This document shows positions 12,016-53,310 of a stretch of 64,000 bases of DNA, one piece after another (position 1 is the first letter of the stretch; every line of letters starts with the position of its first letter). The translations under genes and the position numbers were made by a program. Under the pieces are notes generated by a model, which saw only the letters and a list, made by a program, of their open reading frames with translations, made no database searches and had not been told where the DNA came from. This DNA is from Gemmatimonadales bacterium (GTDB lineage Bacteria > Gemmatimonadota > Gemmatimonadetes > Gemmatimonadales > GWC2-71-9), in NCBI GenBank assembly GCA_036500345.1, contig DASYCE010000007.1, positions 186,001 through 250,000 of the forward strand, in the 5' to 3' direction.

Positions 12016-13218
<1,203 letters not shown>

Positions 13219-16508: not shown

Positions 16509-16553
16509 ACTTTCCGGTGTTTGATTCTGAGGCCCAAAACGGCACAGACACGC

Positions 16554-16582
16554 AAGATAGGCGACTTAAGAGCGGCGGTCAA
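16554..16582 (-). promoter_or_regulatory. Sigma-70-type promoter of the rpsL supercluster
   Basis: TTGACC (16577-16582), a 17-nt spacer and TATCTT (16554-16559) on the minus strand. Downstream is GCG followed by TGTCTGTGC. The same layout and the same nine bases occur at the tRNA-tuf promoter (34434-34462). The predicted start is near 16547, giving an rpsL leader of about 40 nt. Confidence 0.85.
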
Positions 16583-16598
16583 TCCTCGGTATCCGGGT

Positions 16599-16633
16599 AA
16601 AAGTGATGCCCGGTAGGGGGAGCCTAGCCGGGC
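16599..16633 (-). terminator. Terminator of PEP-CTERM gene 1
   Basis: On the minus strand the stem GCCCGG(C)TAGG / CCTACCGGGC (16608-16633) is followed by TCACTTTTACCC. It sits 28 nt past the stop at 16662 and just upstream of the rpsL promoter, insulating the two units. Confidence 0.75.
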
Positions 16634-16661
16634 ACCTGACAGCGCAAGTCCAACGATCAGA

Positions 16662-17339
16662 TCAGCGTTTGCGCTGCCGCCACTTACCGGCCCCCGCCAG
16701 ACCGACCAGGCCGGTGGCGAGGAGCGACATCGTCCCCGGTTCCGGGACCGTACCAGTAGGTGTCCCCGCCGCAAGGGTCAGTTCCTGGTTGATGGCGAAG
16801 GTGTTGCCGCCATGGGTGTTCCCGCTACTGGTGAGGAGGATTTGGTTGAAGCCGTCCGGATCGGAGATGCCGAGGAACGGAGCGTCGCCGTTGTTGGTGT
16901 CGTTTCCGCCCGAGGCCTCCGTCGTGTAGGTCGCGACCAGCGTCCCGTCGAGAAAGGCCTGGAGGGTGAACATCGGGCTACCCGGATCGAAGAACTTCTG
17001 CCAGAGCTGCGTCCCGAAGGCAGTCAGGTTCTGGTCGAACATCAGGTCGATATAGGTGGCGCCATCCTGAGCGAAGAGGAGGGTTTCGTTCGGAAGGAAG
17101 CCCCCCTGCCAGTCGACATTGTCGACCGCGAGGATGAAATCTCCGTCAGTCGAGACCTGGCTGGCAAAGGAGAGCGTGAACGGGTTCGTGGGTGTGAAGC
17201 CGTCCGCGCCGAGGGTCGACCAGTCGAGAATGGTCGCGGGATTGATCTGCGACTTGTCGGTCAGCTGCGTCTGCGCCGCCAGCGGTACCACGGCAACGGC
17301 GAGCAACGCAGTCGGGATGAGCAGGTTCTGAAGTCGCAT
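16662..17339 (-). CDS. PEP-CTERM sorting domain protein 1
   Basis: Secreted protein of 225 residues. The signal peptide covers about residues 1-22 (MRLQNLLIPTALLAVAVVPLAAQ). The middle is a beta-rich, Asp/Asn/Thr-rich extracellular domain of unknown function. The C-terminus has the full PEP-CTERM tripartite signal VPEPGTMSLLATGLVGLAGAG followed by KWRQRKR. In characterised systems this signal is processed by an exosortase at the inner membrane before export. No exosortase lies in the window. The start is supported by AGGGAG 6-7 nt upstream. Confidence 0.88.
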   Translation of the reverse strand: MRLQNLLIPTALLAVAVVPLAAQTQLTDKSQINPATILDWSTLGADGFTPTNPFTLSFASQVSTDGDFILAVDNVDWQGGFLPNETLLFAQDGATYIDLMFDQNLTAFGTQLWQKFFDPGSPMFTLQAFLDGTLVATYTTEASGGNDTNNGDAPFLGISDPDGFNQILLTSSGNTHGGNTFAINQELTLAAGTPTGTVPEPGTMSLLATGLVGLAGAGKWRQRKR

Positions 17340-17883
17340 CACGTCTCCCTCGAACTGAATGTGGTCCTGGCCCAGCCGGCAACGTCTCAAGCTTTCGGCC
17401 AGTCGCGGAATGGAAATGCAACCGGCGGGCCGGTCTGGCGGGCCAGCGTAAGGCGAGCCGAGACAACGGGATAGAAGTTGCTTCCGCCGGAAGAGGGAGT
17501 GCGGTTCGTCGATTCGCCGCCACACTTTCGCCGGTGAATATGTCGAGTCGCGGCTGCAGGTGAGGTGGTGGTCCAGCGGTCTGGAAGCAGCGGGCGGGAT
17601 CCGAAACTGTGCCCCCCGTGGTCGCAAGATTTTGCTTGGCAATCGGTGCAGTGGTCGAGTCAGTGGAAATACCCAGTGGCCCGGAACCTGCTAGACCTCT
17701 GGTCGAAGGCACCGATCGGCGTTGTAGATCAATGACTTAGCTCCTGTGTTGTGGCGTCGGATTGCTACAGTTTGTGGCACAGTTGCAACAGGCAGCGTCT
17801 GAGTCGGTGTGACAGGTGATGATCGGCGTAGTCTCCGGGACTCCCCGGCGCCGCAAAAACGACCCAATGACCGGGCCAGCAAC
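17340..17883. other. Divergent intergenic region between two PEP-CTERM genes
   Basis: About 544 bp between divergently transcribed PEP-CTERM genes 1 and 2. No gene is supported: open frames here lack ribosome-binding sites and any recognisable product. The region presumably carries both promoters. A TGGCAC-AG-TTGC string at 17775-17786 resembles a sigma-54 site, but its -24/-12 spacing is 3 nt too short. Confidence 0.5.
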
Positions 17884-18663
17884 ATGAAGAAATCGATCGC
17901 AGGACTCGCACTCGCAGCAGCAGTCGCACTTCCGGCGGCAGCCAGCGCCCAGGCCGAGCAAAAGTGCGCCCCGGCAGCGGCCCACGTCTGCGTGACGGTG
18001 CTGTTCACGCTGAGCGGCGGGAACACCATCAACGCCTTCATTTTCAACGGCTCCAATAGCGAGGGCGTCAACTGGCAGTCGTCATTGACGCAGTTCGCGA
18101 TCGGTGCGCTGCCGACCACGGGCACCTGGTCGTTGAACAGCGTGCACTACAACGACTGGAATCCCACCACGCTCACGCTGGACAGCAATGGGGCAACTGC
18201 CCTTGCCTCCGACGGCGGCTGGGCGTTCAGCAGCGGCTTCGCCGATCTGAGCATGACCACCCAGGCCGGCGCTGGCGGCCCGGGCGGCAATGGTGGCGTG
18301 ACCACCTGCGACGGCCCGACGGGCGGCAGTGGAACCAAGTTTGCCACCTGTGAAGGGAACGGCACGGCGTTCGGAAACCACGATGACTGGCTCGAGATTT
18401 CGTTCCTCTATTCGCTGGGCGGGCTGACCCAGACCACGCTCGACAACCTGACCTGGGCGTTCAAGGTACAGGCAGTCGAAGGGCTGAACGGCAATTCATT
18501 CGAGTGCAACGACGTCTCGACCAACGCCGACAAGTTCTGCCAGACCGATGACATCAGCATTCCCCTCGAGGACTCGGTTCCGGAACCCGGCACCATGTCG
18601 CTCCTCGCGGTCGGTCTGACCGGGATGGCCGCCGCGGGCCGCCGGCGCCGCAAGAAGAGCTGA
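17884..18663 (+). CDS. PEP-CTERM sorting domain protein 2
   Basis: 259-residue secreted protein. The signal peptide MKKSIAGLALAAAVALPAAASAQA is followed by a domain rich in Asn, Gly and Thr with several cysteines (CAPAAAHVC, CDGPTGG, CEGNG, CNDV, CQTDD) that could form disulfides. It ends VPEPGTMSLLAVGLTGMAAAG plus RRRRKKS, a textbook PEP-CTERM anchor. It probably functions at the envelope or matrix. No enzymatic motif was recognised. A strong terminator follows. Confidence 0.88.
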   Translation: MKKSIAGLALAAAVALPAAASAQAEQKCAPAAAHVCVTVLFTLSGGNTINAFIFNGSNSEGVNWQSSLTQFAIGALPTTGTWSLNSVHYNDWNPTTLTLDSNGATALASDGGWAFSSGFADLSMTTQAGAGGPGGNGGVTTCDGPTGGSGTKFATCEGNGTAFGNHDDWLEISFLYSLGGLTQTTLDNLTWAFKVQAVEGLNGNSFECNDVSTNADKFCQTDDISIPLEDSVPEPGTMSLLAVGLTGMAAAGRRRRKKS

Positions 18664-18690
18664 AGCCAGCCCCATAGTGCCGCAAGAGAT

Positions 18691-18726
18691 GAACGGCCGC
18701 CTCATTGAGGCGGCCGTTCGCTTTTC
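18691..18726 (+). terminator. Strong rho-independent terminator after PEP-CTERM gene 2
   Basis: GAACGGCCGCCT-CATTG-AGGCGGCCGTTC, a 12-bp perfect stem, then GCTTTTCTTCT. It also lies at the 3' end of the converging glycosylase gene and may serve both. Confidence 0.9.
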
Positions 18727-18746
18727 TTCTCTGGCCCCCACCCCGT

Positions 18747-19196
18747 TCAAGGCGGCGCGTTGTCTGGTCGCGCGCGCTCCCACGATTCCACGGGCCCCGA
18801 GCGAGACCGAAAGAGAGGATGCAATCGTGGCCTCCCCATCGGCTCCAGCTGCTCGAACAGTCTCGGCGAGCGTCGCCGCAACTTCGCGAGCAGGTGCTGC
18901 CATTCAGCTGCCACCTGCCCGGCTGTCACCGGGATCTTCGTCCGGGCACGCGGCCCCCGTATCCGGCTCGCGTCGAACCGATATCCGCGCCGCATCGCTT
19001 CCACGTAGATGGCGCGCAGATACGCGTTGATACTCGCGACCGGCCGCCCGCTATTCCGGAACCGCTGCAACTGCGGGTGGTGTCGATAGCCGATCGTGTT
19101 GCCGCGCAGGACCTTGCGGGCGAGGAGCGCCTCACGCCATAGCGCGACGAGGCCTGCAGCATCGAGATACCTGGGGTGCAGCGTCCAGAGTCGCAT
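18747..19196 (-). CDS. Pyrimidine dimer DNA glycosylase / endonuclease V family
   Basis: Predicted UV-damage base-excision enzyme of the T4 endonuclease V (Pyr_excise) family. It is 149 residues and begins MRLWTLHPRYLDAAGLVALWR. Glu22 lies where T4 EndoV has catalytic Glu23. The motifs GNTIGYRHHPQLQRF (about 33-47) and YLRAIYVEAMRRGYRFD match the family. A basic C-terminal region follows. The start at 19196 gives the family N-terminus; the frame extends 18 codons further up without support. TATCTT ends 8 nt before the ATG, so the mRNA may be leaderless. It stands alone between two PEP-CTERM genes. Confidence 0.8.
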   Translation of the reverse strand: MRLWTLHPRYLDAAGLVALWREALLARKVLRGNTIGYRHHPQLQRFRNSGRPVASINAYLRAIYVEAMRRGYRFDASRIRGPRARTKIPVTAGQVAAEWQHLLAKLRRRSPRLFEQLEPMGRPRLHPLFRSRSGPVESWERARPDNAPP

Positions 19197-19204
19197 CGAC
19201 GCAC

Positions 19205-19210
19205 AAGATA
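19205..19210 (-). promoter_or_regulatory. Candidate -10 box close to the glycosylase start
   Basis: TATCTT on the minus strand, 8 nt before the ATG at 19196. No good -35 is seen (TTTTCC at 17-nt spacing). The spacing predicts an almost leaderless transcript. Confidence 0.4.
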
Positions 19211-19227
19211 CGGCGGAGCTGCACCCG

Positions 19228-19265
19228 GAAAAGAGACGGCCCGACACCACATGTGGTGCCGGGCC
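19228..19265 (-). terminator. Terminator of PEP-CTERM gene 3
   Basis: On the minus strand GGCCCGGCACCAC-AT-GTGGTGTCGGGCC forms a 13-bp stem with one G-U pair, then GTCTCTTTTCC. It lies 33 nt past the stop at 19299. Confidence 0.88.
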
Positions 19266-19298
19266 GCTGCCCAGGTCCTCCAGGTATATCGCAGCTAG

Positions 19299-20069
19299 CT
19301 AGATCGAGCGCTTCTTCCGACGGCGCCCGACCCCGGCGAGGCCGACCAGCCCGAACGCGAGCATCGACATCGTCGCCGGCTCGGGCACTGCCGCCGATCC
19401 GACGTCGACATTGATCGACGACCGGGCGACTTCGTTCTCGTTGGCGTCGAACGCCAGCAGGGCGAAGGTGTATTCGCCGCTTGCCGTGGGATCGAACGGT
19501 GAGAATGTCGGCGGTGTGATGAAGATCGGCTCGGAAAGGAAGTCCATACCGAGGTTCCACGAGTCCTGGACCGGGAACGAGGGCGGGAATTGCTCCAGGC
19601 ATCCGATGATCTCATCAATGCAGACCGGATCGAGGGACCCCAGATCCGCCTGAGCCGTGCCAAACCCCGGATCGAAGTCGTACAGCAGCTCATAGGTGAA
19701 GTTGGCCGCGTTGTCTCCACCGACGAAGAAATCGAAGTTCCACAGCGCGTACGGATCAGTCGGGCCGCTCGGCGCGTTTGCGTCAATTCCCGGCTGGGCG
19801 AAGAACGTCCCGGCGCCGTCGTTGGTGAGCGCGGGGTTGTTGAAGCGCTGCGTGGCGGTGAGGCCGAGAATCACGCCCAGTGATCCTGCGTTGGAATTGG
19901 TCATCACCGCGTTATTGGGGATGTCGGTGCCGCCGAAGGTGAAGGTCGGCTGCGAGCCGAAGGTACCAGTGGGCGAAATCCCCTGGGCCGCGAGTGACCC
20001 GGCCGACGCGAATGACGCAAGGACAGCGGCGAGCGTCGCGAGACGAACACCGCCAGCGGAACGATTCAT
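19299..20069 (-). CDS. PEP-CTERM sorting domain protein 3
   Basis: 256 residues. The signal peptide covers about residues 1-28 (ATLAAVLASFASAGSLAAQ). The body is beta-rich with FTFGGTDIPNNAV and repeated aromatic/Asp residues. It has a lone Cys pair (CIDEIIGC). The C-terminus is VPEPATMSMLAFGLVGLAGVG followed by RRRKKRSI. AGGAGA lies about 7 nt before the ATG. A perfect 20-bp palindrome is found about 280 bp upstream. Function beyond export and anchoring is unknown. Confidence 0.87.
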   Translation of the reverse strand: MNRSAGGVRLATLAAVLASFASAGSLAAQGISPTGTFGSQPTFTFGGTDIPNNAVMTNSNAGSLGVILGLTATQRFNNPALTNDGAGTFFAQPGIDANAPSGPTDPYALWNFDFFVGGDNAANFTYELLYDFDPGFGTAQADLGSLDPVCIDEIIGCLEQFPPSFPVQDSWNLGMDFLSEPIFITPPTFSPFDPTASGEYTFALLAFDANENEVARSSINVDVGSAAVPEPATMSMLAFGLVGLAGVGRRRKKRSI

Positions 20070-20349
20070 CGACTTCTCCTGGATGGAGCTGGAAGGAATT
20101 GCAGTGCAGCGCGAACGTTGCGCAGCGCGGCAAGAAGCACGCCGGTTTGTCTTTCCACACGCCGAATGCACGCGTGCGTCTGTCGCCGAATTCTGAATCT
20201 GAATTCGCAGCAAGCCTGCTGTATTTTCTCGACAATGTTGAGGTCATGAAACACCGGGCGGATACGGATCGGCGTGTCGCGGCTGCGCTTCACGGCAACG
20301 CGCGGCGCGAGGAATTCCGCCATCGGCGCACGACCGAAATGAATGCGAT

Positions 20350-20369
20350 TGTATTGATCGATCAATACA
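20350..20369. promoter_or_regulatory. Perfect 20-bp palindrome, candidate operator
   Basis: TGTATTGATCGATCAATACA reads identically on both strands. It is AT-rich in an otherwise GC-rich genome. Length and symmetry suit a dimeric helix-turn-helix regulator (for example LuxR or TetR type). The position upstream of PEP-CTERM gene 3 suggests control of that gene, but the regulator is not identified. Confidence 0.6.
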
Positions 20370-20394
20370 TCGCCCCGCCCCAGGCCACCAATGC

Positions 20395-20430
20395 AGACGG
20401 GACCATCGACGCGAGTCGATGGTCCCGTCT
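20395..20430 (-). terminator. 16-bp perfect hairpin with GCGA loop after rpoC
   Basis: AGACGGGACCATCGAC-GCGA-GTCGATGGTCCCGTCT lies 25 nt past the rpoC stop. It marks the end of the tRNA-tuf-rpo transcription unit. The flank lacks a U-tract on the minus strand, so it may act as a 3'-end stabiliser or a factor-assisted terminator. Confidence 0.75.
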
Positions 20431-20455
20431 GTGTCTCCCGGCGGAGCCGGTCTGG

Positions 20456-25009
<4,554 letters not shown>

Positions 25010-32632: not shown

Positions 32633-33835
<1,203 letters not shown>

Positions 33836-34625: not shown

Positions 34626-35378
34626 ATGATGAAGAGCGCCTGTCCTGCCCTGATCCTGTTCGCCCTGGCCTCGCCGGCGTCGGCCCAGTTCCCGCCCGAA
34701 CGGCTGACCAACATCAAGGCGTTCCCGTCCACCATCGCGATCCCGGCGTTGATCGACTCCATGAAGGGGTTTACCCGCGCCCTCGGCGTTCGTTGCACCT
34801 ATTGCCATGTCGGCCGCGAAGATCAGTCGCTCGACCAATACGACTTTCCCTCCGACGAGAAGGTCTCGAAGGAAAAGGCGCGGACGATGATCCGGATGGT
34901 GGCCGCGATCAACGCGCAGTATCTGGCGGCGCTGCCGTCCCGGAGGGATCCGCCGATTACGGTGAGCTGCGCCACCTGCCATCACGGAGTGGCGCAGCCA
35001 AGGACGATCCAGCAGATCGTCCTCGACAGCTACCACCGCGGCGGCGCGGACAGTGCAGAGGCGGCCTATCGCACGTTGCGGGCAAGATACTACGGTAGCG
35101 CCGCGTACGATTTCGGGGAGGTCCCGCTGACCGATGTCGCTGCAGCGATGCAATCGGAGCGCAAGGGAGCCGATGCGATCCGGTTCTACAAACTGAACGT
35201 CGAGTTGCTGCCGACGTCGGGATTCGGCTATCGACAGCTTGGCCTGGCCTATCTCGCGGAGCATGACACGGCGTCGGCAGTCGCGGCGTTCCAGAAGCGG
35301 CTGCAGCTGCAGCCGACGAATCCGGAAGCGAGGCAGATGACGGAAATGTTGACGAAGCAGCCGCCGACGCGGAAGTGA
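34626..35378 (+). CDS. Dihaem c-type cytochrome, photosynthetic reaction-centre cytochrome-like, with C-terminal TPR
   Basis: Exported 250-residue protein. The signal peptide covers residues 1-20 (MMKSACPALILFALASPASA). Two haem sites are CTYCH (57-61) and CATCH (115-119). Each is preceded by a helix with candidate axial Met residues (Met46; Met88 or Met91), the pattern of the reaction-centre cytochrome c subunit family. The last third is TPR-like (GADAIRFYKLNVELLP, GFGYRQLGLAYLAEHDTASAV). No photosynthesis genes are nearby, so a periplasmic electron carrier of unknown partner is likelier. The start follows GGAG at 4-nt spacing and is divergent from the tRNA unit. Confidence 0.82.
   Translation: MMKSACPALILFALASPASAQFPPERLTNIKAFPSTIAIPALIDSMKGFTRALGVRCTYCHVGREDQSLDQYDFPSDEKVSKEKARTMIRMVAAINAQYLAALPSRRDPPITVSCATCHHGVAQPRTIQQIVLDSYHRGGADSAEAAYRTLRARYYGSAAYDFGEVPLTDVAAAMQSERKGADAIRFYKLNVELLPTSGFGYRQLGLAYLAEHDTASAVAAFQKRLQLQPTNPEARQMTEMLTKQPPTRK

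Positions 35379-50415: not shown

Positions 50416-53310
<2,895 letters not shown>

Follow-up and report, generated by a model that had tools for sequence, protein, structure and literature searches.

An exactly repeated 18-bp site, perfectly palindromic upstream of a PEP-CTERM gene, as the probable landing site of a putative lineage-specific DNA-binding protein

The perfect 20-bp palindrome at 20350-20369 of the window, i.e. of the whole stretch of 64,000 nucleotides analysed in this study, belongs to a site that is present at four places in the genome, with unrelated flanks and with a dyad of varying quality in all four, and it is probably the landing site of a putative lineage-specific DNA-binding protein. 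We put at about one in two the probability that the four-copy site is the operator of such a protein, which would be dimeric, most likely a regulator of transcription, and in charge of a very small regulon. The window palindrome would then be the most symmetric of four copies of one recognition site, in which the invariant GATCAATACAATCG-side half may be bound tightly and the mirror half, perfect in the window, is degenerate elsewhere. Binding by a protein, its role as a regulator, and the effect on expression together with its sign are what we infer from these copies. The features of the window locus are as follows.

20350..20369, no strand: perfect 20-bp palindrome TGTATTGATCGATCAATACA, read from the sequence
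20346..20363, minus strand: 18-mer GATCGATCAATACAATCG, the unit common to all four copies, including the strong half-site, from the genome search
20345..20366, minus strand: 22 bp that recur unchanged at the contig C9 copy (BLAST 100%, query 276-297)
20070..20455, no strand: gap without an accepted gene, 386 bp, containing the hairpin and the palindrome
20394..20431, no strand: hairpin after rpoC, 17-bp stem and 4-nt loop
20456..25009, minus strand: rpoC (RNA polymerase beta'), with Rpb1 domains, neighbour on the upstream side of the site, also compared in relatives
19299..20069, minus strand: PEP-CTERM protein gene, here called pepC, the likely target (PF07589, E=8e-07)

The palindrome and its copies in the genome

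The original prediction described a perfect, locally AT-rich 20-bp palindrome with a PEP-CTERM gene downstream, and the sequence agrees with it throughout: the 10+10 complementarity has 0 mismatches, G and C make up 6 of its 20 bases, compared with 65.6% of the window, and the palindrome lies 280 bp upstream of the ATG at 20069, chosen by us as the likely start of pepC. No other palindrome of at least 20 bp occurs in the window. In a simulation of 300 order-1 sequences of window composition, 0.25 perfect palindromes of at least 20 bp were expected per 64 kb, thus the symmetry by itself is weak evidence for function; function is not proved by symmetry alone, and it is the copy number that is strong evidence. 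Two perfect 18-bp palindromes were also seen in the window, at 51379-51396 (AATCTCGACGTCGAGATT) and 35298-35315 (CGGCTGCAGCTGCAGCCG).

The copies were sought in a draft genome of 3.32 Mb, which comprises 32 contigs and is 96.45% complete. At up to 3 mismatches the 20-mer was found at four places, namely the window and three others with 2 mismatches each, and the asymmetric 18-mer GATCGATCAATACAATCG has exactly 4 occurrences:

C7:4781-4798, minus strand: exact match
C7:206346-206363, minus strand: exact match, the window copy
C9:16884-16901, plus strand: exact match
C26:207474-207491, plus strand: exact match

The further copies that the original prediction had suggested looking for thus exist, three besides the window and all exact for GATCGATCAATACAATCG, while by arithmetic from base composition (G+C of the window) the expected number of occurrences is about 1e-5. 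At 1-2 mismatches GATCGATCAATACAATCG was not found in the genome, at 3 mismatches two chance-like places appeared, and the reversed control gave 0. BLAST of the whole gap against the genome returned the same copies and, beyond short matches, no longer repeat. A survey of shared 17-mers over 162,437 bases of the genome (the window and six further stretches, three of them fetched for containing the motif) gave 43 distant shared 17-mers with the tuf pair left out; all 5 that occur at three or more distant places belong to the motif, and the 39 from outside the motif have two places each. The tuf pair itself consists of two genes about 20 kb apart in the window (12016-13218 and 32633-33835) with long identical stretches.

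Only the window copy is a perfect palindrome, and the others combine an identical strong half with a degenerate mirror half; the core GATCGATC is present in all four, and when the copies are aligned on the 18-mer the bases to its left differ among them. The mirror half matches the strong half at 6, 4, 4 and 4 of the 6 outer positions (for a random hexamer of this composition, a match of at least 4 of 6 has p=0.015), which indicates that some dyad is retained at each copy, one half being invariant and the other degenerate. Comparison of the 120-bp flanks on either side revealed no similarity in 12 of 12 pairwise comparisons, the lowest p being 0.2. In a BLAST alignment the similarity of the window copy to the C9 copy runs on to 91 bp with 68% identity (E=8e-4); the motif contributes to that score. 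The site is discrete, and a longer repeat around it is not shown.

Genes beside the copies and in relatives

In the window the order is rpoC, hairpin, site, 280 bp and pepC. The minus-strand rpoC, identified by its Rpb1 domains in Pfam, stops at 20456, and short overlapping ORFs are present inside the gap that follows. The hairpin is terminator-like by position only; it is devoid of a T run, and a terminator scan made no call. A scan of 19200-20700 gave no sigma-70-like promoter. TACAAT in the strong half was considered by eye as a -10 box, and this reading was dropped: some 17 nt upstream, none of the four copies showed a -35-like hexamer, and the rpsA-side copy is directed away from its PEP-CTERM gene. 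An Rfam family for the site was likewise dropped, the three matches in 19000-21000 all lying far below gathering scores. The window site would act on the promoter of pepC.

A layout of rpoC or rpsA, hairpin, site and then a PEP-CTERM gene at 280 or 232 bp is common to 2 of the 4 copies. On contig C26, an rpsA gene with six S1 domains is followed by a hairpin, the site, 232 bp and the PEP-CTERM gene pepD (L024:7499-8236).

L024:8528-8556: rpsA-side hairpin on contig C26, 12-bp stem

The strong half is directed towards the PEP-CTERM gene in the window and away from it at the rpsA copy. On contig C9, 8 bp separate the end of the 20-mer from a possible ATG of a hydrolase/VWA gene that looks secreted; this gene has alpha/beta-hydrolase matches and an integrin-type VWA match, all over the Pfam cut-off, and, by eye, a signal-peptide-like start; on the other side lies a divergent TerC-family gene. 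These two copies might act on the second PEP-CTERM gene and on the hydrolase/VWA gene, respectively. Further perfect 18-bp palindromes were seen at L023:16865-16882 (ATCGATTCCGGAATCGAT), overlapping the C9 copy, and at L023:19357-19374 (GTCAAACGATCGTTTGAC), immediately beyond where the same gene ends.

Three of the four copies lie outside accepted genes, and the fourth, at C7:4781, lies inside a hemG-like amine-oxidoreductase gene. Compared with its two nearest homologues (57% G001, 55% G009), the gene has equal length and different residues at the site, where the codons are rare by reference to 21 other genes of the same genome (ACA for 35 of 696 Thr, CGA for 58 of 939 Arg, AAT for 67 of 291 Asn). 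Equal length, changed residues and rare codons together argue for a substitution under putative selection on DNA, not for an insertion. With ATG 4170 taken as its start, the next gene, which is S51-peptidase/beta-lactamase-like and opens in the manner of a signal peptide, lies 614 bp beyond this copy, and it is on hemG or on this next gene that the copy may, less clearly, act. By a crude heuristic for secretion, 42 of 121 ORFs counted as secreted, so a secreted-looking gene near all four copies is weak evidence. No regulator gene was recognised directly beside any of the four copies; the nearest one recognised among the neighbours, an OmpR-type response regulator gene (L022:8057-8902), is about 3.3 kb from the hemG copy and showed no tie to the site.

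The genome has 11 PEP-CTERM matches over the Pfam cut-off; upstream sequences were read for 10 genes, and the eleventh match is in a short open frame. Two of the four sites are within 300 bp upstream of a PEP-CTERM gene, and the probability for a random position to lie so is about 0.1% (arithmetic, 11 x 300 bp of 3.32 Mb). With the window copy left out, as it was chosen for its gene, one in three copies would be at a PEP-CTERM gene by chance in about 0.3% of cases. Matching the further copies to PEP-CTERM promoters, as the original prediction proposed, thus succeeds in part: one of the three others is 232 bp upstream of such a gene, but the other two are elsewhere, 9 of the 11 PEP-CTERM matches have no site, and the site is absent upstream of the homologues read in relatives. 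A degenerate array of GTCTCTTCCGCAAGCC-like and GGGTAACCCGACA-like units was observed on contig C11 (L036:6710-7025), just beyond a cluster of four PEP-CTERM matches.

Among 61 genomes, the 16-mer TTGATCGATCAATACA at up to 1 mismatch was found in 2, this genome and G011, where the match lies in a long open frame, and nine other genus members had none. In 102 genomes, pepC homologues were identified in G001, G003, G004 (two) and G007, and weakly in G088, and a pepD homologue (41% identical) in G007 only. The site was absent upstream of the pepC homologues of G001, G003, G004 (one of two) and G007 and of the pepD homologue of G007, and these four genomes have no TTGATCGATCAATACA match at up to 1 mismatch. 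The 8-mer TTGTATTG upstream of the G007 pepD homologue is a weak lead near background level, since it was seen 2 times across 128 kb of loci from relatives.

The genes downstream of rpoC and rpsA vary among relatives; rpsL and the carboxyltransferase were named by Pfam in this genome and by eye in the relatives. Within 540 bp after rpoC, rpsL is present in 4 of 8 relatives (G001, G004, G005, G007) and absent in G002, G006, G008 and G009. Directly after rpsA, 5 of 7 relatives (G001, G005, G006, G008, G009) have a carboxyltransferase gene, G007 has the pepD homologue and G004 something else. Both PEP-CTERM genes therefore sit at junctions that are variable within the genus. At the rpoC-rpsL junction (window 16509-20455) this genome carries three PEP-CTERM genes together with a pyrimidine-dimer-glycosylase-like gene, where 4 relatives have other DNA; the junction is a variable slot within an otherwise conserved transcription/translation cluster. 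At the rpsA-carboxyltransferase junction (L024:7380-8576) a PEP-CTERM gene was seen here and its homologue in G007, and none in five other relatives.

In wider collections, the sole match of the 20-mer TTGATCGATCAATACAATCG in genome_contigs, described as covering 84,980 species, falls within a long open frame from a Cytophagaceae MAG. The 18-mer matched viral contigs five times, and four of these matches share a recurring protein-coding context; both scans are of collections that may omit this genome's own records. By their settings these matches look like coding coincidences. A literature search with sub-strings of the site returned as its sole match the text of a chloroplast paper.

Operator or other kinds of site

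For an operator speak the four exact 18-mers, their unrelated flanks, the kept dyads, the rare codons in hemG and the layout common to 2 of 4 copies. On the other hand, no regulator that could be tied to the site emerged among the neighbours, one copy is coding, the direction of the strong half is mixed, conservation in relatives is absent, 9 of 11 PEP-CTERM matches lack the site, and 19200-20700 contains no sigma-70-like promoter. Regulators normally leave a spectrum of degenerate sites, and none was seen in the genome, either for the 20-mer at up to 3 mismatches or for the 18-mer at 1-2. The main rivals, a chromosome-organising site and the trace of something mobile or recombining, explain the whole pattern no better. 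The former, a partition-type site (parS-like, Noc-like or similar), would have few exact copies, tolerance of coding sequence and no relation to gene starts; it accounts for the exactness, the low copy number, the copy within hemG and the inconsistent orientation to genes, but not for 2 of 4 copies upstream of PEP-CTERM genes. Canonical parS is TGTTTCACGTGAAACA, and the core GATCGATC of all four copies is unlike it; nor was canonical parS found at up to 3 mismatches in 162 kb of the genome. Partition sites are usually conserved, yet TTGATCGATCAATACA at up to 1 mismatch is absent in nine other genus members, and we consider this explanation improbable. Equally improbable to us is a site, recently spread in the genome, that a small mobile element, a recombinase or a guided insertion has left behind or uses as its target. 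The near-identity of the copies, their confinement to this species in the collections searched and the position of two of them at junctions of varying gene content would suit it, as would the 91-bp match between window and C9, but that match includes the motif and the flanks alone are no more alike than shuffles. Moreover, no second copy at up to 3 mismatches lies at the other end of either PEP-CTERM segment, and G007 has a pepD homologue at the same rpsA-side place with no match to the site. Insertion of a mobile element was rejected on the unchanged length of hemG, where the copy is a substitution, and on flanks dissimilar beyond the motif, though the BLAST match extends at 68%.

An element acting at RNA level, a hairpin with a UCGA loop serving termination, processing or stability of the transcript, would be in keeping with the neighbouring rpoC hairpin and with the folding of the window copy (for 32-nt RNA, -8.0 kcal/mol when read from the 18-mer strand and -6.9 when read from the opposite one). 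However, folding energies at the other three copies range from -1.7 to -6.3 kcal/mol and the structures differ, so the hairpin is not what is conserved, and a T run is absent; we dropped this reading, the fold not being kept, and regard it as very improbable. A chance palindrome together with unrelated repeats is hardly credible. Although 0.25 perfect palindromes of at least 20 bp are expected per 64 kb, and a long open frame on contig C31 contains one further occurrence of the 12-bp core, the 3.3 Mb contain four exact 18-mers where about 1e-5 would be expected, and the reversed control gave 0, which nearly refutes this reading.

Returning to the operator, we speculate, and would not bet on it, that a species-private exact site with one invariant strong half, written even into coding sequence, may mark an envelope regulon or a chromosome site read by a putative novel-family protein. 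In that event it would be a PEP-CTERM regulatory site apart from PrsR/sigma-54, of a sort that our literature search did not turn up for this little-studied phylum, which by gene content is probably Gemmatimonadota. A protein found with the site would make it clear if regulation is common to two unlinked PEP-CTERM genes; should the site not be a regulator's, an exact site tolerated inside hemG would lead to chromosome biology.

Comparison with known systems

The original prediction of a LuxR-type operator finds no support in comparison with the lux box, which has CT at positions 3-4 and AG at 17-18, whereas the window palindrome has TA at both. What the palindrome shares with the lux box, a 20-bp inverted repeat bound by AHL-activated LuxR (PMC6691176), is length and symmetry. 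No AHL-binding domain in the draft genome exceeds the Pfam cut-off; of two matches, the best reaches 19.9 bits against a cut-off of 23 (E=8.8e-4), with two stops inside. An operator of LuxR or quorum-sensing type is thus not supported. The alternative in the same prediction, a TetR-type operator, is possible, since its length fits, with nothing specific to the family. Operators of local regulators (TetR, MarR, GntR type) are AT-rich dyads of 15-20 bp in few copies, and the site resembles them in these respects and in having 3 of 4 copies outside accepted genes; it differs in its asymmetric invariant part, its one coding copy and the lack of a recognised regulator gene beside a copy. No TetR-type gene was noticed by eye among the ORFs beside the four copies, or found in 15 Pfam-scanned proteins. 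REP elements are likewise short palindromic repeats and extragenic, as the site mostly is, but usually number more than 100 copies (PMC2817692), against 4 here with one inside hemG.

A parallel in gene context is the PEP-CTERM box of the PrsK-PrsR system (Haft 2006, PMC1569441), described there for Proteobacteria only as a 17-nt motif ending TTTACA, on average 63 nt before a sigma-54 site, of which a case with sigma-54 was tested in PMC9850573. A sigma-54/PrsR box was rejected here: the best -24/-12 site upstream of pepC scores 8 of 11 (shuffles mean 7.7, p 0.54), and upstream of 10 PEP-CTERM genes none was clearly above shuffles (lowest p 0.09). The main text of PMC11406998, which joins PEP-CTERM and Gemmatimonad- terms, contains no motif, promoter or palindrom, and PEP-CTERM, palindrom- and promoter co-occur in text of PMC3333781 and PMC10957091. 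PEP-CTERM gene regulation outside Proteobacteria is an open question, and in the account of Haft 2006 (PMC1569441) further PEP-CTERM motifs and regulators remain to be found. Like the PEP-CTERM box, the site described here is a DNA motif that precedes single PEP-CTERM genes within a long gap, and as an exact 18-22-bp site with four copies it offers good bait for its putative reader protein.
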